Virus record (IMG/VR): IMGVR_UViG_3300018906_000008
Span: 1 to 28,856 of that record
Source of the DNA: a virus
Reading direction: 5' to 3' (one strand)
Length of the DNA stretch: 28,856 nucleotides
Within the stretch, counting starts at the first letter, position 1; every line of letters starts with the position of its first letter. Made by a program: the position numbers and the translations under genes. The notes under the pieces were generated by a model. It was not told where the DNA came from. It was given only the letters and a program-made list of their open reading frames with translations, and searched no databases. This document shows, piece after piece, positions 13,579 through 28,628 of the stretch.

Positions 13579-13869
13579 CGGATCGCGCTCCATGGCTCGT
13601 TTCATGATTTCCTCTACCGAAACACAATCAAGCCGCTCAACGGCAGCAGTAAGACGATCATAGACGGCTTGACGTGCCTCTCGTTCCAACTCATCCGCCA
13701 ACTCTCTTAACTTCTCCGGCGTGAACTCCACCGGGTGCGCATCTCGTTTCCCATGTGGCGACCGCATACGCAACCTACCTTTCTCGACCTGTCCGTGCGG
13801 CAACGGGCAACAACCCGTGACGAGCACAAGCCGACCTTTCCTCTTAATAAAACGTGGCTCACTCATCAT
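13549..13869 (-). CDS. post-tape-measure protein sharing the tape-measure C-terminal motif
   Basis: 106 residues. Start at ATG 13869 overlaps the tape-measure stop (ATGA). The N-terminus has a GCCPLPHG and basic patch. A helical region (FTPEKLRELADELEREARQ) leads to a C-terminal segment AVYDRLTAAVERLDCVSVEE...MERDPSI. That segment is about half identical to the C-terminus of the upstream tape measure (AVLNRLAAAVERLEGIPAEQ...VERDPSI). It may bind the same tail-tip partner. Not otherwise recognised. Confidence 0.7.
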   Translation of the reverse strand: MMSEPRFIKRKGRLVLVTGCCPLPHGQVEKGRLRMRSPHGKRDAHPVEFTPEKLRELADELEREARQAVYDRLTAAVERLDCVSVEEIMKRAMERDPSILSIEHSR

Positions 13870-16800
13870 CCCATCCCAAACGCAGGAGCCAGCCCGCGTC
13901 CTATTCTGTCAGGGTCGCTTTGGACATTGCGGATCAACCCGTCGCCGACGATGGACGGATCGCGTTCAACGCCCTGTCGCACGATCTGCTCTGCGGGAAT
14001 TCCTTCGAGCCTTTCCACTGCGGCGGCGAGGCGATTCAGCACTGCGCCCTCGGCGGTGCGCGTGTCGCGGGTGAAGGTGTCGCGCGACGTATCGCGCCCC
14101 TGGGTGCTGCCCGCGCTCGCTGCACTTCCACCGCCTGCGCCGCCGCTCGCAAACGCATCCCCAGCGATCCCGCGCGCTCCGATTGCCGCGCCGCCCCCGA
14201 CCGGACCGTACAAGAGCGCCGACTTGAAGGATTGCTTCGCCGCCGCTTCATAAGCCAAACCGGAAAAGACATTGCCCGCTGCAAAAGCCGCTGCTGCCTT
14301 CGCTTTGTAGCCCACGCCTTCAGCGAGTGCGAAAGCCGCCTTCACAATCGACTGTGCGGCAAGGGAAGCCAAGACGGAGGCGGTCAACTTGCGCCAGGCG
14401 TTGGGGCCGATAGTGCCCATCATCGCCCACTGCTCGACCATGCCGCCGAGTCCCTGCGCCATGCTCCCCACGGCTCCTGAAATCATCGACGCAGCATTAC
14501 CGGCGGCGTCGCCCATCTGCCTGAACACTTCAACGGCCAGCGTGCCAACGGAACTGAGAACCGAGCCGGAGCGCGCGAGTTCGTCCGCAAAAACGTCACC
14601 GAAAATGGAGCGCGCACTGGCCGGGTCTTCACGCTCAAGATCACGCGACTCCTGAGCCTTGACCCGTCTTTTCTCGTCCGTATGCCGCTGCTCTTCGGCT
14701 TCGATGCGCCGGTTGTAAGCCTCGGTAATCTCCAACTGCTTTCTAAGGCCGTTCTCCTGCGCCACACGCGCGTCACGCTCCCGCTTCAACTCTTCGACGT
14801 TCGCGCGCCTCTCGGCTTCCGAGAACGAGACGGCAAGTGCCGCGCGGCGTCGGATGATCTCGGTTCTATCGGTTGACGTGCGCTCGAAATCTTCAAGCTG
14901 CTGTTGTTGCTCGCGCCGCTCGATCTCGTTGATCTGCTCGTAGATACTGCGCAGTTCATCCTGATAGCGGCGCAAATCTTCAAGATCGCGCAGGCGTGCG
15001 TCTCGTCGCCGGTTTACGGCCTCGGCCTCAAAAACTTCCCGCTCGGCTTCCAGCCTGCTCTGCGCGTCCAGAACTTCGAGCCGCGCCGTGCCGTTGTTGC
15101 GCGCCGCGATCATGTCGTCTTCGAGTCGCTTGCGCCTGTCTGCGAACCTTTTGCGTTCAGCAGCAATCGCGGCATCTTCGCGCCGCTCGTTCGTCTCGAC
15201 GATGCCTTTGCGGATGTTGTCGGCCTGTCGCCGGAGGGCGTTCGTTTCGTCCTCGCTCTCCTTTGAACGTTTCCGGTTCTCGTCCTGAATGGTGCGCTCA
15301 CGCCGCCGCAACTCTCCCTCTTTAGCGTCGCGCTCCTGACGCGCGCCCGCCGCTTTCAGTTCGATGGCCGCAAGTTCGGCAGCCAACTCTTCCGCCGCCT
15401 GCTTTCGCTCGACGGACACGCGCCGGGCTTCATCCTTTTCCCTCTCAAAATTGGCGAGACGCGCCTTCAGTAATTTGTCTTCCGCCTCGACGCTCTTGCG
15501 CACGAAGATGTCAATGTCAATCAGTCGCTCGGCATACTGCGCTTCGGCCTCTTCCGTCTCTCTTTTGTAGGCAAGCGCGGCATCCGCCACTTCGTTCTCT
15601 AAAGCCTGCTGGCGGGCACGGCGCAGCGATTCAAGGCGCTCTTTCTCGCGCCGCTCGGCTTCCTTGTCTCGCGTCTCGCGCAAGCCCAAATCTCGATCTG
15701 AGTTGTCCGGCGCGTCAGCCGCTTTCTTTGTCAGTCTCCCTGACAGTTCGTCATAGGTGCGGGAGACTGTCTGCGCGCTTTGCTTGAGACGGTTAAGCGT
15801 CGCCTCGGTGACGACCCGCGCGATGTCAGCAGCTTTCGTGGCAGAGTTCGCGGCTTCAGCAAAATTGAATTGCGAAGCGTAATAGATGGCTTTCCCGGCT
15901 TCGACGGCGGACGCCGAATAGCCGACAAACGCCTCCTGCCCGGCCTGCAACGCCGCTATCGTCTCTCTGATAGCGGTCGGTATCGTCCCGGCGGCGGCGA
16001 CGAAGTTCAGAACGCGAAGAGCAAGGTCGGCAAGGACGGCGGAACTAAGAAGGCCGATCACCCTGATAAGCGGGCGCATCTCTTTGATGGCGTTGGCGAC
16101 GGTGCGCAGCAGAAAGGTGACGGCGGGCGCGGTCTCTTTGCCGAGCGTCAAGGCCAGCCCCGCGCCGACGTTTTTGAGTTCGGTAAAGGCTAATTCAGCA
16201 TCGTGGAGCGACTTCGCCTCGGCATCGCTCAGGACTACCCCCAGCTCCAGCGCCCGCGCCTTGATCTCATCAAAGCCCGTGCCGAGCCTATCGAGCACCG
16301 GGATCATCTTCGCGCCGGATTCGCCGAAAAGTTGAATCGCAATCGCCGTCTTCTTCGCGCCGTCCTCGGAGGCGGCAAAGTTTTTGATGAAGGTCTCGAA
16401 CGCCTGCTGCGGATTCTCGGCTCCCGCACGCGCGTCTATGCCGAGGCGTTTGAAGGTGTCGGCGAGATTCTTGTTGCCCTCTGCGGCCTCGACGAGTCGC
16501 TGCTGAAAACGGGTAATGCCCAGCCCGAAAGTGTCGAAAGATATTTTCGCTTCATCGGCAGCCAGCTTGTAAACGGAAAGCGTCTCTGCGCCGATCCCGG
16601 TTCTCTCGGAAGCGCGATAAATCTCGTCGCCCACCTTACTGACTGCGGCGGTCGCTTTGATTCCTATCGCGGCCAGTCCGGCATAGGCGGCAGCAACGGC
16701 GATGACGGCAGCGGCGGCGAGCGCCAATGGGACGAGAATTGACGCGGCTGCGGTGGCCGTACCACTAAGGCCAGCAGCCGCGCCGCCCGATGCCGCGCCC

Positions 16801-17435
16801 AAGCCGAGCATGCCGGTGCGCGCCGCTTCCAGTCGCGGCAAGATCGCGCCGACGTTTCGCCCAAATACCTCAGCGGCAAGCGAAGCTCGATCCTCTGCCG
16901 ACTCGATCTTGTTAAAAGCTGCAGCGAACTGTGAAAGCCCCGCCTGGGGATCGGTGCGCGCTTGCACACGGTTGACGCCGAGGCGTTTGAAAGTTCCGCG
17001 CAACTCGACATCGCGCGTTCCGGCATTAACCCGATCCGCGCGCTCAAGCGCAGCTTGAAACAGTTCGACTTCTCGACGAGTAGCTTTGAATGAGGTTGCG
17101 GCGGAGGCGACACGACCGGCCAGTTTGCCGATGTTCAGTTCCGTTTTCGCGGTCTGGTCGGCCAGTTCGCCCTGTGCTCGTTTCGCGGCCTCTATTTCAT
17201 TTGTGGCGAAGGTTCGGAGGGCTTGGCGAGCGGCAGAGATGCCGAGGCTTCCGGCGAGTCCTAAACGGCCTCTGACGGGTGAAGAGATGACAGTGAGGGC
17301 GCGTTGTCCGGCAGTCTCAAGCGCGCGGACTTCTTTGATGTAGTCACTTTTGAAACGGCGAACGTCGCGCGAAGCCTCTGCCCCGCCCGTCAGTTGCAGT
17401 TTGAAAAGTAATGCTACAGCTTCGCCGGATCGCAA
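13866..17435 (-). CDS. tail tape measure protein
   Basis: 1189 residues from TTG 17435, with GGGAG at normal spacing upstream and the chaperone stop 21 nt before. It has the form of siphovirus tape measures: a helical N-terminus, a hydrophobic segment at about 225-258 (SILVPLALAAAAVIAVAAA) and a long charged coiled coil at about 590-900 (many EER/RRE heptads). Residues 148-207 and 327-387 are related repeats (FKRLG...FG...IP.L...TG). It sets tail length and is usually ejected with the DNA. A TTG start is uncommon but two other genes here use alternative starts. Confidence 0.92.
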   Translation of the reverse strand: MRSGEAVALLFKLQLTGGAEASRDVRRFKSDYIKEVRALETAGQRALTVISSPVRGRLGLAGSLGISAARQALRTFATNEIEAAKRAQGELADQTAKTELNIGKLAGRVASAATSFKATRREVELFQAALERADRVNAGTRDVELRGTFKRLGVNRVQARTDPQAGLSQFAAAFNKIESAEDRASLAAEVFGRNVGAILPRLEAARTGMLGLGAASGGAAAGLSGTATAAASILVPLALAAAAVIAVAAAYAGLAAIGIKATAAVSKVGDEIYRASERTGIGAETLSVYKLAADEAKISFDTFGLGITRFQQRLVEAAEGNKNLADTFKRLGIDARAGAENPQQAFETFIKNFAASEDGAKKTAIAIQLFGESGAKMIPVLDRLGTGFDEIKARALELGVVLSDAEAKSLHDAELAFTELKNVGAGLALTLGKETAPAVTFLLRTVANAIKEMRPLIRVIGLLSSAVLADLALRVLNFVAAAGTIPTAIRETIAALQAGQEAFVGYSASAVEAGKAIYYASQFNFAEAANSATKAADIARVVTEATLNRLKQSAQTVSRTYDELSGRLTKKAADAPDNSDRDLGLRETRDKEAERREKERLESLRRARQQALENEVADAALAYKRETEEAEAQYAERLIDIDIFVRKSVEAEDKLLKARLANFEREKDEARRVSVERKQAAEELAAELAAIELKAAGARQERDAKEGELRRRERTIQDENRKRSKESEDETNALRRQADNIRKGIVETNERREDAAIAAERKRFADRRKRLEDDMIAARNNGTARLEVLDAQSRLEAEREVFEAEAVNRRRDARLRDLEDLRRYQDELRSIYEQINEIERREQQQQLEDFERTSTDRTEIIRRRAALAVSFSEAERRANVEELKRERDARVAQENGLRKQLEITEAYNRRIEAEEQRHTDEKRRVKAQESRDLEREDPASARSIFGDVFADELARSGSVLSSVGTLAVEVFRQMGDAAGNAASMISGAVGSMAQGLGGMVEQWAMMGTIGPNAWRKLTASVLASLAAQSIVKAAFALAEGVGYKAKAAAAFAAGNVFSGLAYEAAAKQSFKSALLYGPVGGGAAIGARGIAGDAFASGGAGGGSAASAGSTQGRDTSRDTFTRDTRTAEGAVLNRLAAAVERLEGIPAEQIVRQGVERDPSIVGDGLIRNVQSDPDRIGRGLAPAFGMG

Positions 17436-17455: not shown

Positions 17456-18107
17456 CTATCGCCGCCCTTTTTGTACCTCGCCAGCGATACGCTGATCGTC
17501 ATAGGCCAATCGAAGGGCGGCGGCAATGTTGAAATCAAAGGCGACTACAGGGTCTTCCAGTCCGTAGAGATCACTTGGCTTTTGCCCGAACCTTTCTGCG
17601 GTTCTTGCGAGCGCCAGGAAGTTGTCGCTTACTACGAAAGCCTTTGATAGCTGTCGCTGGCACTGCGCCTCCCTTCGTCTTCACCGTTCGGTTGCTGGCA
17701 CTCGCCATGCCCCAGGCGAAGATCGCAGCGAAGTCGCCGAGGGGGAGCCTGCTCGCCAGCATCTCATCGGGTTGCGCGTTGCTCTCAACGATGCGCGGGC
17801 GCTTGCATGTTGCTCTCACGATCTCGCGCATAAAGATGAGCACTTTCCCGGCGCGCTCTTCCCCGATCTCGTCAAAAGCAGATTCCACCTCATCAGGATC
17901 GCCGTTCGTCTCGCCGAACACACGCTGCACGTCCGCAGTCAACTCCTGGGGCATCATTTCTGTGCCCCACCAAAGTTCAATCGGAGGCGGCGCGAGCAGG
18001 GCGCTAAAGCCCGACGGCAACTCAACGAGTTCGCCGTGCTCGGCCTCGGACTCTTCGATCTTCGCCAGCCAGTCTGCGGCGGTCGGCGGTGTTTTAAGTG
18101 TGGTCAT
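17456..18107 (-). CDS. tail assembly chaperone long form (G-T fusion by +1 frameshift)
   Basis: The upstream ORF (ATG 18107) reads to TGA 17571. A second frame, offset +1, is open from just after a TGA near codon 142 of the first frame and ends at TAG 17456, just before the tape measure. It encodes VVSDNFLALARTAERFGQKP then SDLYGLEDP..., the T-domain of siphovirus chaperones, and has no start codon. Candidate slip sites lie at codons 155-157: AAA_GGC (AAA to AAG) or TTT_CGT (TTT to TTC, 17639-17634). Shift at TTT_CGT gives about 216 residues. The fusion would bind the tape measure during tail assembly, as lambda gpGT does. Confidence 0.75.
17571..18107 (-). CDS. tail assembly chaperone short form (G-like)
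   Basis: 178 residues. It sits between the major tail protein and the tape measure, the fixed position of chaperone G. It is mostly acidic and helical (VESAFDEIGEERAGKVLIFM), with a basic tail from codon 158 on (RSKRQLPGARKNRRK) that exists only in the unshifted product. The N-terminal TTLKTPPTAADWLAKIE motif is typical for the early part of the tail operon. Its last 21 codons overlap the alternative T-frame, so the basic tail is not under protein-level conservation alone. Confidence 0.8.
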   Translation of the reverse strand: MTTLKTPPTAADWLAKIEESEAEHGELVELPSGFSALLAPPPIELWWGTEMMPQELTADVQRVFGETNGDPDEVESAFDEIGEERAGKVLIFMREIVRATCKRPRIVESNAQPDEMLASRLPLGDFAAIFAWGMASASNRTVKTKGGAVPATAIKGFRSKRQLPGARKNRRKVRAKAK

Positions 18108-18113
18108 AACCTA

Positions 18114-18725
18114 TCAGGCAGCGGGCACCACTTTAAATTCACGGTATAGACGATCAGACTCCGCCCTTCCCGGTACACTCAACGCCTTAACCACCATGTC
18201 CTGTTTGCTGCGCTCTCCTTTTTTGAATTGCAGCATGTGCGCGGCGGAGTTGTAACCCGCATAGATAATGACGCCAATATATCCGCCCCCCTTCAGAGGC
18301 GAAACAACGGCAACGGGACGCGCCGGTAAGATGATGCGATCACCGCCCGCCGTGATGCGTTCGGTGGTGACGCCTCCGACTACGTTCGTCGAATACGTAG
18401 CGAACGGAATCATATCTGCGATGCGCTCAAGATCGGTGACTTCAAGGGCAGAGAAAGAGACTTGCGCCGCGATGGACTCAACGCCGACCTCTATGGGGCT
18501 GTCCTCTTCGTCAACCATCTCTTCGTAAAAACTTGGCTCGGCGGTGAACTCGTAACCCGCATCGGTCGAGCCGATGAAGATGGCGTTCGGATTCTGCACC
18601 GGATCAGGCACGCCGTTGGCATCGAGTAACAGGTCTTGCGAAAGCGTGAGCGCGGCGATGTCGTAGTAGAGCTTTCCGTGCTTGCGGTGAATATAGACGG
18701 GCTGGATTGCGCCGTTTGCTGGCAT
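18114..18725 (-). CDS. major tail (tube) protein
   Basis: 203 residues with an excellent ribosome site (AAGGAGTAG, 7 nt). It is beta-rich, with SFYEEMVDEEDSPIEVGVES and VSFSALEVTDLERIADMIPF, typical of tail-tube subunits of siphoviruses. It sits directly before the chaperone, as expected. The strong ribosome site fits a protein needed in many copies. No large insertion domain is seen; the end (LYREFKVVPAA) matches the length of plain tube proteins. Confidence 0.82.
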   Translation of the reverse strand: MPANGAIQPVYIHRKHGKLYYDIAALTLSQDLLLDANGVPDPVQNPNAIFIGSTDAGYEFTAEPSFYEEMVDEEDSPIEVGVESIAAQVSFSALEVTDLERIADMIPFATYSTNVVGGVTTERITAGGDRIILPARPVAVVSPLKGGGYIGVIIYAGYNSAAHMLQFKKGERSKQDMVVKALSVPGRAESDRLYREFKVVPAA

Positions 18726-20933: not shown

Positions 20934-21099
20934 CGCAAATCTCCTCGTCAAAGTCTTCTACTGTGAACGGTCGCCAGTTGAGTTCCAGTTGGGCGCGGGC
21001 AGCGGGCGAACCGTGCAGCAGGGCGGCGCGGGCACGTGTCGCCGCACATCGCCGCAACTCCTGCTGCCGGTAAGCAATTGCTCGCGCTTCTTCACTCAT
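20842..21099 (-). CDS. small phage protein downstream of capsid
   Basis: 85 residues; ATG 21099 overlaps the capsid stop (TAATG), so it is translationally coupled. The first 55 residues (MSEEARAIAYRQQELRR, later LELNWRPFTVEDFDEE) look real and phage-typical. The last 30 (GGQGRGAGLSRGEG) are encoded where the next gene's frame is strong and look like a shadow. A truncated or frameshifted ancestor is possible. Confidence 0.55.
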   Translation of the reverse strand: MSEEARAIAYRQQELRRCAATRARAALLHGSPAARAQLELNWRPFTVEDFDEEICDEEEGRRSWRGSSAEDGGQGRGAGLSRGEG

Positions 21100-22037
21100 T
21101 AGGCAGGCGAACGAAGAACGCCGACCGGGTAGCGGCTGGCTTCCGTCGGCTGGTCGTAAGTGATGTTATTGGAAACCTGCCACGCAGCGCGGAAGGTCAG
21201 GCGCATCGCCACCATATCCTGTTGGGCAAGGTTGTAGACGATGGCTCCGGTATTATCCTGAATCACCGCCTCGGTCAGGAGTTTGTAGGTCATGTCTTTG
21301 CGGACGGCCAGGATGAACTGCATCCAGTCGCCCGCGAAGAGTTCCGCCACGCTTGCGCCCGTCGGCCACAAACCGTTGAGGGCGTAGCTAACCGGCTCGC
21401 CTTCAATCGTGTTTAAAGCGATGTCGAGAAGTTTCTGCCCCTGCGTGTCGCGGGCGTTGCGCAAGAACCGGCGATAGGAGCGGCTCGTCACGAAACCGTT
21501 GACATCGAAGCCGTCAGTCTCGACCGTGCCCATCGTGTCGCTGATGTCGGTGGCGATGCCGCCGGCAGCGGCATTGTTCGTCCCGCGCGCCACGACATTT
21601 CCGGCGGCGACCGCCGAGGCCGCGATGTCGCCCGGCCATGAAGTCGGCTTGTTGACGCCGAAGAATACGGCGGCATCGAGCGTGCGCCCGACCGCCTCTT
21701 CGATGCGCGGCTGCACTTCCGCCCAGATATCGAAACTCGAATCGTCCAGCACGTTTTCGGGGATCGGCACAATGCAGGCGATCTCTTCGACGTTCAGGTA
21801 CTTGTTAGACCAGTTCATCTCGGTCGTCTGCTTGAGTCCCGTATCGCCGTTGACGAAATAGGCCACCGGCAGCGCAGCGAGAACTGGCATGCGTTGTTGG
21901 TTGGTCGCCATCGTCGCGCGGCGAAAGAGCGTCATCGCCGCCGACTGCTTGGGCATGTTCGAGATGATGCCGTTTGCGACATCTTCGGGGATGGTCGCCT
22001 GCGCATCGGTGCGCGAGATAATGTTGCTGTAGGACAC
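21099..22037 (-). CDS. major capsid protein, HK97 fold
   Basis: 312 residues. The opening (ISRTDAQATIPEDVANGII and later MPKQSAAMTLFRRATMAT) and the block VPIPENVLDDSSFDIWAEVQ resemble HK97-fold capsids, and the C-terminus (WQVSNNITYDQPTEASRYPV) is typical. No long propeptide is present; a separate scaffold gene lies 2 nt upstream, so the scaffold is not fused. No prohead protease of the ClpP or U35 type is recognised next to it. Confidence 0.87.
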   Translation of the reverse strand: MSYSNIISRTDAQATIPEDVANGIISNMPKQSAAMTLFRRATMATNQQRMPVLAALPVAYFVNGDTGLKQTTEMNWSNKYLNVEEIACIVPIPENVLDDSSFDIWAEVQPRIEEAVGRTLDAAVFFGVNKPTSWPGDIAASAVAAGNVVARGTNNAAAGGIATDISDTMGTVETDGFDVNGFVTSRSYRRFLRNARDTQGQKLLDIALNTIEGEPVSYALNGLWPTGASVAELFAGDWMQFILAVRKDMTYKLLTEAVIQDNTGAIVYNLAQQDMVAMRLTFRAAWQVSNNITYDQPTEASRYPVGVLRSPA

Positions 22038-22038
22038 G

Positions 22039-22632
22039 TTAATTTCTCCCGGCTGCCTGCCTGATGAGGGAGTTCATGTCAACGTGCGCCTGGGTTGTGC
22101 GCCCCGCGCCGCCGTTGGCAGAACCTCCGCTGAGGATGAACAACTCAGGAGCTTCGCGTTTGACTTGCTGAATGAGGGGCTTGAGATTCGTGATCTCGCC
22201 CGTCTCATCGTCGTACTCGAAGGACGGCTCGATCATCCGCAACACGGCGCGAGGGTTGCGCGCCCCGACCTTCTCCTGCGGATCGGTCAGGTAGTGCAAA
22301 GCCTTGTCGCGCGCCGCCGTTCGGCGCAGTTCCGTGCGGGCGTCGTCTCGCTCCTTCTCCGCCGCTTCCACTCTGAGTTTCAACTTTTCCGCTTCCGTCA
22401 TCGCCGCTTCATTGGCGGCCTTCTGCGCAGCTTCCTGAGCGGCCTTGACCGCCCGTTCCGTTTCGCGTTTGACGATGCGATTCAGTTCGGTTTGCGAGAA
22501 CGTTTTCTCGTCACCCTCAGTTGATTTAGCGGCCTGAGTATCCGCGCCCGACCCGGCTCCGGTGGTGTCTTGTTTGCCCGCTCCCTCAGCGGTTTGTCCC
22601 GGTGCAGCGTCGTTGGTGTTGTCGTCTGGCAT
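22039..22632 (-). CDS. capsid scaffolding protein
   Basis: 197 residues from ATG 22632, supported by AAAGGAATCTC; an upstream in-frame start at 22695 lies inside the terminator and is rejected. An acidic, Gly/Ala-rich disordered N-terminus precedes a highly charged Ala/Glu/Lys coiled coil (about 45-105), then a short globular end with RNPRAVLRMIEPSFEYDDET. This is the profile of gp20/DUF4355-like scaffolds that guide capsid assembly. A strong terminator lies 37 nt upstream of its start. Confidence 0.85.
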   Translation of the reverse strand: MPDDNTNDAAPGQTAEGAGKQDTTGAGSGADTQAAKSTEGDEKTFSQTELNRIVKRETERAVKAAQEAAQKAANEAAMTEAEKLKLRVEAAEKERDDARTELRRTAARDKALHYLTDPQEKVGARNPRAVLRMIEPSFEYDDETGEITNLKPLIQQVKREAPELFILSGGSANGGAGRTTQAHVDMNSLIRQAAGRN

Positions 22633-22668
22633 GAGATTCCTTTGCGGAAAATAGGAAGGGCTGTAAAC

Positions 22669-22715
22669 GCAAAAAACCCGCAGACGGAACTCCATTAGGA
22701 ATCCATCTGCGGGTT
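22669..22715 (-). terminator. intrinsic terminator upstream of the scaffold gene
   Basis: AACCCGCAGA (22675-22684) pairs with TCTGCGGGTT (22706-22715); the loop has a further inner GGA/TCC pairing. On the minus strand it is followed by six T's (complement of 22671-22676). It ends about 37 nt before the scaffold ATG. Confidence 0.85.
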
Positions 22716-22841
22716 AGTGCCTTGAAAGGTTACTGCCCTAAATTGTTTTTGGACTATTCGGCGCTTTCACCGGCCACCGAGCGATCCGTTCGTACTGCCG
22801 CACGAGTCCTGCTTTCGCAGGCATAGCCCAAACTTAAAAGA

Positions 22842-23009
22842 TCATCTGCCGCAATGCTCGCATTTTTCAATCTTCAGGTATTTGCGAAGCGCGACAACTA
22901 TCAATATCAAACCGTGCAGTATGCTCAAAGCAAGCGCACGCTCACCGTCAGGCGATACTATATCACGTTTTCTCTCTGTAGTGGAAAGATTATTAAGATT
23001 GGCGCTCAT
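22842..23009 (-). CDS. small membrane protein with C-terminal CxxC
   Basis: 55 residues (MSANLNNLSTTERKR... to ...KIEKCEHCGR). One hydrophobic helix at about 26-41 (LALSILHGLILIVVAL) lies between a charged N-terminus and a short basic tail that ends in CEHCGR. Its ATG is 3 nt after the stop of the frame-broken gene upstream, so the two form a pair. The following 126 nt before the terminator (22716-22841) contain no further gene I can support. Function unknown; a membrane-anchored zinc knuckle or a small holin-like protein are both possible. Confidence 0.55.
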   Translation of the reverse strand: MSANLNNLSTTERKRDIVSPDGERALALSILHGLILIVVALRKYLKIEKCEHCGR

Positions 23010-23012
23010 AAA

Positions 23013-23208
23013 TCATTGACTCGTCAACTGAGCATGCCGGACGGCTATCCTGTCCGGGTACAAATACTGTCCACAGCCTTTCGTATAGAGTCCCGCAACA
23101 TACCAACACCGCTCTGGCCGAATCAGATAGCAGGAGGCCAAGCACGTCGGACAAAACCAGTGCCCCTGCCTCCTGCTTTTTCCACAAGTGCCGGTGTCTA
23201 ATTCTCAT
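23013..23208 (-). pseudogene. zinc-ribbon gene apparently broken by a frameshift
   Basis: ATG 23208 opens MRIRHRHLWKKQEAGALVLS, but the protein-like continuation is in another frame: HWFCPTCLASC, later CWYVAGLYTKGCGQYLYPD and an end at TGA 23013, with cysteines spaced as in a zinc ribbon. That frame has no start codon downstream of its own stop. A single base less in the run of five A's (about 23180) would join both into one 64-residue protein. A sequencing error, decay or +1 frameshifting would all explain it. Confidence 0.45.
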
Positions 23209-23233
23209 TCCCGTACTCGTCAGTTATTTCTAG

Positions 23234-23242
23234 TGCTATAAT
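23234..23242 (+). promoter_or_regulatory. extended -10 promoter
   Basis: TGCTATAAT: a TGn extension plus perfect TATAAT (23237-23242), 6 nt before the ATG at 23249. No good -35 is seen, as often with extended -10 promoters. Confidence 0.6.
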
Positions 23243-23248
23243 CCTTCC

Positions 23249-23599
23249 ATGCACCCTTATCCACCTGAACTGATTGAACGCGCCGATGAGGTTGTTGCCC
23301 TCGCCAGATTCGTCACGCCTACCGATAAGGAAGGTATCCTCGCGCTCTATCAGGAACTTTTGGATCAAAACAATCTAATGTCGCCCGAAGACCGTGATAC
23401 AACTATCAGCAACGGCAACATCCCGCTCGCAATGTGCGCCCCATTTTCACCCGGCGACTTAATAGCCTGCATCCCCTTCCGCGTCGGACTGATAGAGGAA
23501 GTCCCATTTGACGACTTTCTACAACACGTCGAATCAAGTCTGCGCCGCACCCTGCATCAAACTGCCCTTGAATACTTAAGTGGTGAACGAACAGCGTAA
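23249..23599 (+). CDS. hypothetical moron protein (island 2)
   Basis: 116 residues from ATG 23249. Soluble and mostly helical (YPPELIERADEVVALARF, FLQHVESSLRRTL), with a central FSPGDLIACIPF. It opposes the late operon and is divergent from the small minus-strand genes. There is no Shine-Dalgarno (CTTCC precedes the ATG), but an extended -10 promoter puts the transcription start on or next to the ATG. It is probably expressed independently of the late genes. No family recognised. Confidence 0.7.
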   Translation: MHPYPPELIERADEVVALARFVTPTDKEGILALYQELLDQNNLMSPEDRDTTISNGNIPLAMCAPFSPGDLIACIPFRVGLIEEVPFDDFLQHVESSLRRTLHQTALEYLSGERTA

Positions 23600-23612
23600 C
23601 CGTAGCTCCCTG

Positions 23613-23846
23613 TTAGGCGCTTCGTTGAAATTTGAAGCGCGGCCAATATCCGCCCTCGCCTTCTATCTCAACCCATTCGTGCGGGCGTTTGCTATCATCA
23701 TGCGGAAGCCTTACAAGCCTTATTACTCGCGCTGGAAGGTTGAGGGGCATAAAGTACCCGCGCCGGGCTTCTACGACATCACCACGCCTAACATCAGCAC
23801 GCACCCGACCAGGTTCAGCTTGAATGTCATCGTTAGCTTGCGCCAT
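23613..23846 (-). CDS. small hypothetical late protein
   Basis: 77 residues from ATG 23846, with AGAAGGA upstream; an upstream in-frame start at 23882 has poorer context. It has VRRGDVVEARRGYFMPLNLP and ends with HEWVEIEGEGGYWPRFKFQ, a small-beta-domain look. It follows the zincin gene in the late operon and precedes moron island 2. Family unknown. Confidence 0.6.
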   Translation of the reverse strand: MAQANDDIQAEPGRVRADVRRGDVVEARRGYFMPLNLPARVIRLVRLPHDDSKRPHEWVEIEGEGGYWPRFKFQRSA

Positions 23847-23874
23847 TATCTTGATCCTTCTCGGCAGGCGCGCG

Positions 23875-24417
23875 TCAGGCACGTTTATGCCTCTCCTTGC
23901 CCTTACTCGCGTCCATTAACTCCCACGCCTTGAACATGGTTTTATTGGCTTTGTCGCCTAACCTCTCCTTTGTCCTGCCCGCTTTCTCCTGCATCAGCGT
24001 GCGCATGATGATCATGGTGTCCTGCGTCACCATTTCGCCGCGCGCCCGCACTTCTTCCATCAGCATCTTGTGAAACTTCGGCGCGTCGTCGGCGGGCACT
24101 AATTCGCCGATGATCGTGCGCGCCCAATCATCCATCGGTGCGCGCAGTATGTGGATCAGTTCATGCGCCGCATCCTCGGATTTTGCCGCATCCGATTGTG
24201 CAAACCAACTTGGTTGCAGCCTGATGGATGCCCAGCGGTAATCGTAGTAGGTATTGATCTGCGCGTTTACGTCTTCATTCGTGTCGTTGGCATGTTCAGC
24301 GTGGATGAAAACATGATCGCACCACTGCGGCAACAGCACTTCGAGGGGCGCAAAGATTCGCTCCACTACGGGCAGCAACTCCGCCGGTATATCATCTTCG
24401 TATCTAAACTTGCTCAT
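23875..24417 (-). CDS. putative zincin-like metalloprotein in the head module
   Basis: 180 residues. HELIH at 85-89 (SEDAAHELIHILRAP) is a HExxH zinc-site motif in a helix, as in minigluzincin proteases. A downstream third ligand is not certain; E104 and the AELLP/DD region are candidates. The rest is charged, with a C-terminal Lys/Arg-rich tail. It lies between portal and scaffold, where a prohead protease usually sits. Start ATG overlaps the preceding gene by 14 nt. Catalytic activity is inferred. Confidence 0.65.
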   Translation of the reverse strand: MSKFRYEDDIPAELLPVVERIFAPLEVLLPQWCDHVFIHAEHANDTNEDVNAQINTYYDYRWASIRLQPSWFAQSDAAKSEDAAHELIHILRAPMDDWARTIIGELVPADDAPKFHKMLMEEVRARGEMVTQDTMIIMRTLMQEKAGRTKERLGDKANKTMFKAWELMDASKGKERHKRA

Positions 24418-24637
24418 GCGCTTTCACCCCATCTCCACTCACAAACAATCGCACCCACTCACGCGCCCGCTCCCTATCCGTCACTTCAAACACCGCGCCG
24501 CGTCCCATTGCACGATAAAATTCCACCGGATTAACGGCATCGCGCAGCAACCAGCCGATGCGCTGAAGAATGAAATCGCACTCATCGTCTGCCAGGCGCG
24601 CAGGATCAGGCTGCACACTCTCTTTAATCTTCTTCAT
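24404..24637 (-). CDS. small hypothetical late protein
   Basis: 77 residues from ATG 24637, just after the stop of the preceding gene; an upstream in-frame start at 24697 overlaps that gene and is rejected. Features: ADDECDFILQRIGWLLRD and VEFYRAMGRGAVFEVTDRER; helical and charged. Overlaps the zincin gene start by 14 nt. Function unknown. Confidence 0.6.
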   Translation of the reverse strand: MKKIKESVQPDPARLADDECDFILQRIGWLLRDAVNPVEFYRAMGRGAVFEVTDRERAREWVRLFVSGDGVKAHEQV

Positions 24638-24639
24638 AG

Positions 24640-24915
24640 TTAATTCAAAACCATCGTCGCAACGCGCGCCCTCTTTTCGAGAAAGAATTTGATACATCCC
24701 ATCAAAGCCAAGCCGACAGACAGCCCCGGTTCAATGCTTTTATCCAGCGGCGCATGTGCCACATAAGTTTTACCGTCAATCGTGATCGCAACTTCTAAAG
24801 CCACGCCACTCGACGGATTGCCGATGATGAACTCCGGCCTCCTGTCCTGATTCGTAAAGCGAATCACCGCATCGTTTTGAATGCACCACGCGATTGCGTC
24901 TCCGTAGCTGTTCAT
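24640..24915 (-). CDS. small hypothetical late protein
   Basis: 91 residues; ATGA overlap with the upstream gene and AAAGGC nearby support the start. A beta-rich middle (SGVALEVAITIDGKTYVAH) resembles the DNA-contact or 'Phage_TAC' style small domains, but no family is claimed. One weakly hydrophobic stretch (GLSVGLALMGCIKFFLE) lies near the end. Confidence 0.6.
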   Translation of the reverse strand: MNSYGDAIAWCIQNDAVIRFTNQDRRPEFIIGNPSSGVALEVAITIDGKTYVAHAPLDKSIEPGLSVGLALMGCIKFFLEKRARVATMVLN

Positions 24916-25232
24916 CTTTTAGCCTTTCGTGTTTTTTGTGCTGCCAGTGAGAGGGCGCATCCTCCCGTGCTGAAAGCTAATCCCCCACATAATGGAAAAC
25001 CGCAGTAAGAGCAGGATGGGTTATCTATTCGAGATTGTTGCTTCCAAATTCGATCCACATGCTGGTATTTTCGCCCGACCGTGTAGTTGCGCATTACATC
25101 ATCCGCTATGGAAAGCAGATCGGAGGCGATTCGCCCTGCCTCTTCAATAATCGCTGCCTGCATAGCCAGCAAGTGGCATAACTCCGGTGATATAAAATAA
25201 AATCGCTTGCCGGTAACACGAGAGGTTCTCAT
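24912..25232 (-). CDS. small cysteine-containing hypothetical protein
   Basis: 106 residues from ATG 25232, immediately after the upstream stop. N-terminal helices (LCHLLAMQAAIIEEAGRIAS) are followed by a CSYCGFPLC cluster and an extra Cys, a likely metal-binding knuckle. Ends with a basic tail. It belongs to the portal-to-scaffold block; role unknown. Confidence 0.6.
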   Translation of the reverse strand: MRTSRVTGKRFYFISPELCHLLAMQAAIIEEAGRIASDLLSIADDVMRNYTVGRKYQHVDRIWKQQSRIDNPSCSYCGFPLCGGLAFSTGGCALSLAAQKTRKAKR

Positions 25233-25481
25233 TTATATCCACTCCTTCAGATTATTAGCGGCAAGACAGGTGATAATCTTAAGCAGGCGCTCCGGCGTCA
25301 CCTCAGCCCCGGCAGAAACAATGACGTACCCGTACGTCACTTTACTATCCTTAGTCCGCAGCGAGACGGAAATAGCCCCATCCTGCCCGTACTCCGAAAA
25401 CTCCAGCCTCGCGCCTACCCTTGCCCATTGTCTCACTGCATCAGCGAGCGCAGAGCAGGAAGTTGAATCTTTTTCTGTCAT
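25233..25481 (-). CDS. small hypothetical late protein
   Basis: 82 residues; its ATG overlaps the portal stop (ATGA), which supports the start. Mixed alpha/beta: ALADAVRQWARVGARLEFSE, then TYGYVIVSAGAEVTPERLL. No motif recognised. Translationally coupled to the portal, so it is expressed with the head module. Confidence 0.6.
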   Translation of the reverse strand: MTEKDSTSCSALADAVRQWARVGARLEFSEYGQDGAISVSLRTKDSKVTYGYVIVSAGAEVTPERLLKIITCLAANNLKEWI

Positions 25482-26800
25482 CGCCCCTGCCCTTCTTCCG
25501 TTATGGACTCATCTCTGACACGTTCGATCTCCTGATCTGTATAGTTCAGTTCCTTAAATGCCTGCGTCCGACTCATGCCGAGTTTTTCTACCCGCTCCAC
25601 GATCATCTCCTGCTGCTCTTTCTCGTTTCGCGGCGTGGTATCCCGCCACAGGGCGTCAAGTTCAACCTCGGCGTCAATATTGCTCACCTTGAGAGCGAAC
25701 TTAAACATTGCCTCCCAAGTCGCACCGAACGCGACTTGTCGATCATCCACTTTCGATGTCAGACGGAACTCTAAAGTCTTCAACGCTTCGCCACTTGGCG
25801 GGTTGCCCGTACCGGCCATAAAATAGTGCGCGGGGATACCCGTCACCATCGCCATATCCAGTTTGTATCCCTCTTTGACCTTCTGCAATTGCTCAAGATT
25901 CGCCGCTTCAAGTTCGCCGAATTTGGCGTCCTTCGCCGCCGTCGCCCAAAACTCATTAACGACAAACGGATTGATCTTTTTGCCAGTCGCGGGATCGACC
26001 GGCAACTCTACTCCGGTCGCATAGCGTTGCTTGAAAGCCTGCTCCTCGCCGCCGATCAACATGTCACGCAGGGTTTTATTCAGAGCATCCTGCACAGGGA
26101 TAGCCTCTGACAGTTCGGACACACCGAAGCCGGAGCAGCCCGCCCCGTTGCCGAAATGAAAGACGGGAACCTGGCCGTATGGGTTAAGCACTTGCGGCTC
26201 GTCCGGGTGCTCTATGAAAAGCCCGGCCTTCACTTGCGCGCCCTGTCTGAGCGGCGTTCGCGTGACGTACTTTTCAATGCGGTCGGGATAGTACAGATTG
26301 ATCGCCACTCGCTTATCGGCGAGCGTCCACTTGCGCGCCGCAACTGCCACGACATCCGGCTCCTCTTCGTCATACGCCACCGTCATCATGTGCGCGTAGT
26401 TCGGATGAATGGTGACGAGATTGGTGACAGGCGACGGCCAGACGACGGCATAAGCATCACCCGCCGTCAATGCTTCAAGATGAATCTCTCCCACGCGCTG
26501 CTCCGCCCGGTTGCGTCGCCAGATGACGCTTAAAGCATCCCCGACCGCATCGGGCGATCCGTCCTTCGACTTCACCTTGTTATGCGTCAGCCCGGAGAGT
26601 TTCAATCTATCGCGCACGCTCGTCACAACCGCCGGGCACATGTTGAGTCGGGCGCGACGCAGCAGGGCGGCGAAGTCGGAACGCAGTTCGGCGGGCACGA
26701 AGTCGAGGCGATGCCGCCCTTCGTAGTAATCGCGCATGAGGGCGTAATTCGCCGCCCGCGCGGAAAGAGAGTCAATCGCCCATTCCAAATCAGCGTTCAA
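25478..26800 (-). CDS. portal protein, SPP1 gp6-like
   Basis: 440 residues from TTG 26800, with GAAGGTGAC upstream inside the terL stop region. It has the layout of SPP1-type portals: an N-terminal YYEGRHRLDFVP, a central DAYAVVWPSP block, then GIPAHYFMAGTGNPPSGEALK, a GxPS-like motif of the portal family, and a C-terminal helical ERVEKLGMSRTQAFKEL. The dodecameric ring is the DNA entry and exit channel and the terminase docking site. It is directly downstream of terL and translationally coupled to a small gene. Confidence 0.88.
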   Translation of the reverse strand: MNADLEWAIDSLSARAANYALMRDYYEGRHRLDFVPAELRSDFAALLRRARLNMCPAVVTSVRDRLKLSGLTHNKVKSKDGSPDAVGDALSVIWRRNRAEQRVGEIHLEALTAGDAYAVVWPSPVTNLVTIHPNYAHMMTVAYDEEEPDVVAVAARKWTLADKRVAINLYYPDRIEKYVTRTPLRQGAQVKAGLFIEHPDEPQVLNPYGQVPVFHFGNGAGCSGFGVSELSEAIPVQDALNKTLRDMLIGGEEQAFKQRYATGVELPVDPATGKKINPFVVNEFWATAAKDAKFGELEAANLEQLQKVKEGYKLDMAMVTGIPAHYFMAGTGNPPSGEALKTLEFRLTSKVDDRQVAFGATWEAMFKFALKVSNIDAEVELDALWRDTTPRNEKEQQEMIVERVEKLGMSRTQAFKELNYTDQEIERVRDESITEEGQGR

Positions 26801-26803
26801 GCG

Positions 26804-28231
26804 TCACCTTCTTTTGAATATGTGAAGAGTGCGATCCGCGTCCGGTTCATTCAACTTGCTGAATGCGCCGCTGCTCGCGTCCACCTGATCGTCGTTTTTG
26901 CCGTTCGGAAAGGCTGTCAATTCGTCCCGGTAGGCTTTGTTCCACGCGCCTGCGACCACACGCACATTGCCCGCCTCGCATTGATCCGCGAACGGGTCGG
27001 CGCGCGTCACCTTGTCGTTTCGCGCCATCTCGGTCTTGACCGCCAAACCCGCCATCAATCGCACGATGTTGTCTATGACCTCGACGGCCAGGCCGGGCAC
27101 TTTCTCGATCCACGTCGTGACGGGCTGGCGCGAGCGCCCGTCCCCGTGCACGCCGCCGCGCAGTTGATCGGCTTCGGCGGTCGCACGAATATGCTCGTTT
27201 CGCTCGCGCGGCGACCACTGCCCGCGCGCCACATCCTCAACGTAAAAGAGTCCGTCCGGCGTGCGCGACATCAGTACGCCAACGCTGTAATCCGCCTTGC
27301 TGGAATCCGAGCCGCCCAAATCCCAATACCGGATGCGCCGGATGTCGTCACCCGCAGGCAGAGCGGGCACGATGGGCAGTTGATGCAACTTAAACATGTT
27401 GCCCTCGCGTGCCTTCGGCGTCCCCTGATAGAGCGCGAGAAACGTTTGCGGATTCTCTGCCTGAATCTTTTCCAGATAATCAACCGGGTAGCGGGCTGAG
27501 AGCGGTTCGCCCATCTCTCTCCCCATCGGATCGTCGTCGCCGTCGGCAATGGCGGCGAAGCGCAGATACTCCCACCCGCCCTGCTCCTGCAACCTGCCCG
27601 CGAAATCGTCCTCCACCCAACGATGAAACATGACCACAACATTCGTGTCAGGGTTCAGGCGCGGCATCACTACGTCCGTCCACCAGCCCCAGATGCTCGC
27701 GTTGATGACGGGCGATCTGGCCTCTTCCCTGTTCTTGTACGGGTCGTCAATGATCAGGGTGTCTACGCCCATTCCGACGAAGCCGGAGGCGAGGCCAAGC
27801 GCCTTAAACGATGGGTTAGCGTCTAAGAGTGAGGCGCGTTGCAGGGTTGACCACTCATCGGCGGGCACTTTGTCCGGCACGCGCACGTGCGGAAAGGCGC
27901 GCGTAAACTCCGGCGAGCGCATGATGGAGAGGTTGACTTTGCTGAACCGCTCTGCATGCGTCAGGTTGTAGCAGGCGAGGCGGATACGCGAAAGCGGATT
28001 GACACCAAGACTCCACGCCGGAAACCTCTGCGAGACGATGATCGACTTTCCAAATTGCGGCGGGCCGTGCATCAGAATGCGCTGCCCCGTCTGGTGCGGC
28101 AACAGTTGAAGGCGGCGGCACACGAACTGCTGCCACGCCTCCAACTCGAAGGAGATGGTCGGCGCGATGAAATCGGCCAGCGCGGGCGGATCGGGCGCGC
28201 CTGTCGCAGTAGCCGAAGCACGTTGCGCCAT
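26804..28231 (-). CDS. terL: terminase large subunit
   Basis: 475 residues from ATG 28231. An upstream extension to 28321 runs into terS, and AAGGTGG lies just before 28231. Walker A GPPQFGKS (56-63), Walker B TLIIDDP (158-164) and an ATPase coupling region are followed by an RNase-H-type nuclease with Asp304 (YWDLGGSD) and a C-terminal NDDQVDA. It pumps and cuts concatemeric DNA into the prohead. The packaging strategy (cos or pac) cannot be read here. Only 10 nt separate it from terS. Confidence 0.93.
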   Translation of the reverse strand: MAQRASATATGAPDPPALADFIAPTISFELEAWQQFVCRRLQLLPHQTGQRILMHGPPQFGKSIIVSQRFPAWSLGVNPLSRIRLACYNLTHAERFSKVNLSIMRSPEFTRAFPHVRVPDKVPADEWSTLQRASLLDANPSFKALGLASGFVGMGVDTLIIDDPYKNREEARSPVINASIWGWWTDVVMPRLNPDTNVVVMFHRWVEDDFAGRLQEQGGWEYLRFAAIADGDDDPMGREMGEPLSARYPVDYLEKIQAENPQTFLALYQGTPKAREGNMFKLHQLPIVPALPAGDDIRRIRYWDLGGSDSSKADYSVGVLMSRTPDGLFYVEDVARGQWSPRERNEHIRATAEADQLRGGVHGDGRSRQPVTTWIEKVPGLAVEVIDNIVRLMAGLAVKTEMARNDKVTRADPFADQCEAGNVRVVAGAWNKAYRDELTAFPNGKNDDQVDASSGAFSKLNEPDADRTLHIFKRR

Positions 28232-28241
28232 TGCCACCTTA

Positions 28242-28628
28242 TCAGCGGTCGGCCACAGATGAGGCCGCATCAGCGACGGCGGCGATGTCGAGTTTAATTC
28301 CATCCGTTTCACTCTGCGCAAACTTCAACCAATCAAGAATGTCTTTTTCCGTCAGCACCGTGCCGTCCTCACGTGTTTTCTGTCTAATAGCTCGCATCGC
28401 AAGCCGCAAACGCTCTGCCCTGCCTGCGATGTCAACCATCAACGAGAGCCGATCCACTTCCGCTGCAAACTCCTGATGTTGCTGCCAGCGGTAAATGGTA
28501 GCCTCGCCAACGTTGTGCGTTTTCGCAGTTTCCGCCTTAGTCCTACCCTCTGCGAGACTTACAGCTACAGCAGACGATTTCAGCGTCCACTTAAAACCTA
28601 CCAACTTTCTATCGTTTTCCCCGCTCAC
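28242..28628 (-). CDS. terS: terminase small subunit
   Basis: 128 residues. An N-terminal helix-turn-helix (VSLAEGRTKAETAKTHN then VGEATIYRWQQHQEF) recognises the packaging site; helical oligomerisation segments follow (SLMVDIAGRAERLRLAMRAI). Position directly before terL is diagnostic. The start at 28628 lies 4 nt after the stop of the upstream gene. Confidence 0.82.
   Translation of the reverse strand: MSGENDRKLVGFKWTLKSSAVAVSLAEGRTKAETAKTHNVGEATIYRWQQHQEFAAEVDRLSLMVDIAGRAERLRLAMRAIRQKTREDGTVLTEKDILDWLKFAQSETDGIKLDIAAVADAASSVADR

Follow-up and report, generated by a model that had tools for sequence, protein, structure and literature searches.

How does a phage translate a tail gene that lacks a start codon? 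This question was raised by an IMG/VR virus record of 28,856 bases (hereafter the window, meaning that whole stretch), in which an earlier note had noticed a start-less T frame between a G-like ORF and the tape measure gene and had proposed that it is reached by frameshifting during translation. The frame observation was correct. On the minus strand, the gene for a putative major tail protein is followed by the G-like ORF, the T frame, and the tape measure gene (Table 1), so that two overlapping ORFs lie between the tail protein and tape measure genes, as in a G/G-T chaperone pair, and the same order is found in relatives. T is in the +1 frame relative to G and can be reached only by a +1 or a -2 shift. 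It contains no ATG or GTG, and its single TTG lies near the C-terminal end. The extent that the note had given for T, 17456 to 17660, holds at the stop end, whereas upstream the frame is open from 17680, making T slightly longer. The interval available for the shift is bounded, as the note had stated, by a TGA near G codon 142 and by the G stop codon. Within this 36-codon overlap, TTT CGT is the sole in-frame TTT_C, and the rest of G has none. An overlap of such length would contain one or more by chance with a probability of ∼0.16, and as a piece of sequence the window TTT_C is by itself unremarkable; its significance comes from comparison with relatives.

Table 1. Features of the candidate chaperone locus in the window
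Feature	Position	Strand	Details
Putative major tail protein, upstream	18114..18725	-	Weak PHROG matches
G-like tail assembly chaperone ORF	17571..18107	-	178 aa, 0 frame; between putative major tail protein and tape measure genes
T-frame TGA, 5' bound of shift	17681..17683	-	G codon 142
T domain	17456..17680	-	+1 frame, start-less; stop 17456-17458
Candidate slip site UUU_CGU	17634..17639	-	G codons 157-158; predicted P-site UUU to UUC, A-site CGU
G stop codon, 3' bound of shift	17571..17573	-
Tape measure protein, downstream	13866..17435	-	PHROG tape measure families, best E=4.7e-20

Relatives of T were collected by successive searches. A tblastn search with window T matched ctLpZ231 (MW202444) at 2e-5. 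In that genome G and T are annotated as unlinked genes and are likewise in a +1 relation, and a protein at the equivalent position is 28% identical to the putative major tail protein over 89 residues. When the G ORFs (26% identity) and the T peptides (44%) of the two genomes were aligned separately, one shared Phe lay opposite window Phe157, encoded by TTT in the G frame and by TTC in the T frame. Searches with T alignments yielded the uncultured contigs L005, L008, L009, L012, and L013. L008 G and L008 T each weakly matched, at concordant positions, the chaperones of cluster D mycobacteriophages, and L008 T matched Bacillus phages too. A search with Troll4 T returned 161 records, mostly from Mycobacterium, Gordonia, and Microbacterium phages; a search with BSTP12 T brought in Youna2, Dp-1, and Dulem virus 36; and the final two scans gave 11 further contigs, a few of which duplicate phages already collected. 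Scans of the genome_contigs set found no relatives. The resulting G/T set comprised 37 loci from phages of Mycobacterium, Gordonia, Microbacterium, Curtobacterium, Bacillus, Weizmannia, and Streptococcus, from a gut virus, and from uncultured contigs.

Judged by its sequence, the window T peptide is a member of a real protein family: a profile built from the other 36 T peptides, with the window left out, found only the T frame among 584 six-frame window segments (E=9.5e-12; next best, 2). Relatives match the tail assembly chaperone families phrog_4336 (G) and phrog_6778 (T). PHROG and Pfam searches with window G and window T gave no matches, and an AlphaFold model of window G was discarded at a pLDDT of 45; the putative chaperone role of window G therefore rests on its position and its relatives. 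Two PHROG families of unknown function also correspond to this pair in phages of the Dp-1/BSTP12 type (L031 and L017), phrog_6541 to the T domain and phrog_6280 to its G partner.

Several candidates were set aside. The match of L002, to a 15-residue peptide, looks fortuitous. The contig L004 and the phages Eileen and Golden, which are relatives of the head module, lack a T of the window family and therefore have no bearing on the +1 question; in Eileen and Golden the annotated chaperone has a length fitting a -1 shift. The window head module itself (21099-28321) resembles Bridgettevirus, with a capsid 52% identical to that of Arthrobacter phage Eileen, and it also resembles that of an uncultured phage (L004, portal 71% identical). 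The absence of the window T family from the tail modules of these head relatives amounts to head/tail mosaicism.

Across the collected set, T was in the +1 frame relative to G at all 37 loci, and the arrangement that the note had named as evidence against its reading, G and T sharing a frame or standing in a -1 relation, occurred at none. At 36 of these loci the T domain opens at an in-frame TTT_C, which reads TTT CGY (CGT or CGC) at 33 and TTT CCT at 3; CGT follows TTT in the window, L008, L009, and L012, and CCT follows it in ctLpZ231, L005, and L013. The codon preceding TTT is variable. Most loci carry a T-frame stop 5 to 26 nt upstream of TTT, so that the shift there can occur no earlier than just before TTT. 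The note had offered both TTT_CGT and AAA_GGC as candidate sites; the former is the one that relatives preserve, while AAA_GGC is not conserved. Conservation of TTT_C, which the note had suggested as a check, also persisted when T peptides were clustered, with TTT_C in 18 of the 19 clusters formed at 50% identity and in 14 of the 15 formed at 40%. In the collected loci, in-frame NTT_C has T as its first base in 18% of cases. Against this background, the chance of TTT_C in 14 clusters (<40% identity) is ∼0.18^14, or about 4e-11, even if protein selection fixes the T-frame Phe; because the clusters share descent, this value should be taken as a guide rather than exactly. Several of the genomes seldom use TTT for Phe (2 of 35 Phe codons in Troll4 and 0 of 14 in NarutoRun, in the ORFs sampled), and TTT_C is kept regardless. 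Phe is encoded in both frames at the site, as P-site slippage predicts, and four GenBank records (Papyrus, Cuke, NarutoRun, and Aikoy) annotate two-part joins with a length fitting +1. The G ORFs of L008 and L009 contain a second in-frame TTT_C upstream (L008:4550-4976), where a shift would lead to a T-frame stop before the T domain.

Aikoy (OR159654, L028:1185-1197) is the only relative without TTT_C, having GTT CTC at the corresponding place. Two codons upstream, directly after the bracketing T-frame TGA, it has TTG AAA AGT, in which AAA_A permits a tRNA-Lys +1 slip with full pairing. Aikoy thus keeps the +1 relation, perhaps through AAA_A as a replacement slip site. In this it may be likened to two amalgaviruses that lack UUU_CGN, are described as having another slip site, and retain the +1 shift (PMC5052127).

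From the frame relation, the bracketing stops, the homology of T, and the conservation of UUU_C, we infer that the locus very probably encodes a pair of tail assembly chaperones of the lambda kind, G and G-T, with a programmed +1 ribosomal frameshift linking the two reading frames; that slippage takes place, that it happens in the P site, and what G and G-T do are our reading of those observations. The note's interpretation, a programmed +1 chaperone frameshift at UUU_CGU, is thus supported at the level of sequence. Under this model, the majority of ribosomes would complete G. A minority would slip forward by one base at the point where the P site holds tRNA-Phe (anticodon GAA) paired to UUU and the A site presents the Arg codon CGU. 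UUU and UUC are decoded by one tRNA-Phe, and pairing should therefore survive the slip: the same tRNA would come to decode UUC, after which GUA GUA AGC would be read into the T frame. The predicted product is a minor 216-aa G-T fusion (...IKG-F-VVSDN...). By analogy with lambda, G would coat the tape measure protein and the T portion of the fusion would recruit the tail tube protein (PMC5009743). No conserved downstream RNA structure was found (mean z, -0.05). SD-like sequence was enriched ∼8 nt and 16 to 20 nt before TTT relative to the rest of G (21 loci), at scattered distances, and there was no RF2-like close spacing, with no SD-like enrichment 0 to 3 nt upstream of the site.

Other routes to T can be weighed against these data. 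A -2 shift at the same place, known for Mu gpGT (PMC3498833), would enter the same frame as +1 and add one residue (F-F-V), and the note had accordingly read the locus as "+1 or -2." The triplet that a -2 shift would bring under the tRNA differs by locus (GCT, ACT, CGT, CCT, CAT, TGT, or AGT) and offers no pairing to the anticodon of tRNA-Phe, so the -2 half of that reading is disfavored and we hold it to be very improbable; UUU_C conservation fits only the +1 half. We give equally little credence to T being made separately, through re-initiation or internal initiation. Although T stands as a gene of its own in several GenBank records, the annotated starts in Troll4, Terapin, Patience, and Sparcetus remove the conserved beginning of T, the window T frame has only its lone TTG near the end, and the conservation of UUU_C would be left unexplained.

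Since the frame break was first noticed in a single metagenomic contig, it might have reflected transcriptional slippage or an error of sequencing or assembly. We consider this the least probable account of all: the frame relation is identical at 37 loci, many of them from isolates, and the site lacks a long homopolymer, having just UUU. Sequence error, a concern that the note had itself raised, is excluded because the independent genome ctLpZ231 and many others share the break. A real +1 shift could also take place at another codon of the overlap or independently of UUU, by A-site skipping of the C. Skipping the C, or entering directly at UUC, would yield an identical peptide, and Aikoy appears to shift without UUU. 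The first U is nonetheless conserved even though it is no part of UUC, the Phe codon of the T frame, which favors P-site pairing on UUU over plain skipping, and we regard a UUU-independent shift as improbable. P-site slippage of tRNA-Phe from UUU to UUC remains the preferred reading.

Parts of this picture are already known, namely, the kind of shift, the +1 joins in the four records, and one prior site proposal, in archaeal viruses. What is new, as far as could be checked, is the breadth across phages and the conservation test; no report of UUU_C in bacteriophage tail chaperones was found in the literature searched, which took in only part of the subscription journals. On balance we lean toward the view that UUU before a CGY (or CCU) codon acts as a general +1 recoding signal, held in an ancient tail-chaperone lineage of bacterial viruses, probably used by archaeal HF1-like viruses, and convergent in influenza A virus and amalgaviruses. 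If true, this would be a general forward-shift motif that annotation tools lack; the authors of PRFect (2024) describe no general motif as known for forward frameshifts (PMC10885494). The G/T family provides a candidate motif with strong comparative support that is testable in cultivable phages. It also joins two chaperone halves that many public phage records list as separate genes or as unknown ones, and it supplies a likely function for phrog_6541 and phrog_6280. In our set, G and T are annotated apart, or T is missing, at L014-L016, L018-L020, L024-L027, L029-L034, L003, and L017. Finally, the comparison suggests that UUU_CGN, a motif of eukaryotic viruses, is favored in bacterial translation too, which bears on why tRNA-Phe slips there.

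Among known systems close to this one, lambda gpG/gpG-T shares the order of tail protein, G, T, and tape measure, an overlapping start-less T, and a common N terminus for the two products. Lambda, however, makes a -1 shift on a tandem-slip heptamer (X_XXY_YYZ), whereas the window T would be reached by +1 on UUU_C. The site also differs from that of RF2, with its A-site stop codon and SD sequence ∼3 nt upstream, since the A-site codon here is CGY or CCU. Shifts into the +1/-2 frame do occur in other phage tail genes. The tail tube proteins of SPP1 and Listeria phage have known +1 shifts (PMC6316719, PMC3498833); in SPP1 the site is CCC_UAA at the stop codon of the tail tube gene, and its chaperone uses -1 (PMC6316719). 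Mu gpGT, in turn, is made by -2. HSTV-2 has been described as very likely +1 (PMC5009743). The tail chaperones of the HF1-group haloviruses require a +1 shift, for which TTT-CGC was proposed in 2020, citing influenza virus and amalgaviruses (PMC7230728); that proposal covers a single group of six archaeal virus genomes and was argued from local sequence conservation. UUU_CGN directs the +1 shift of influenza A virus PA-X, at UCC_UUU_CGU (PMC3498833), in agreement with the note's identification of UUU_CGU as the PA-X core, and is the proposed +1 site of amalgaviruses (PMC5052127). These are eukaryotic RNA viruses with unrelated proteins, and the phage loci do not conserve the UCC ahead of UUU and may have CCU in place of CGN, as three relatives do. 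The window itself has the same in-frame UUU followed by CGN, with its downstream ORF in +1, and would share with PA-X and the amalgaviruses both the UUU_CGN core and the +1 slip of tRNA-Phe from UUU to UUC.
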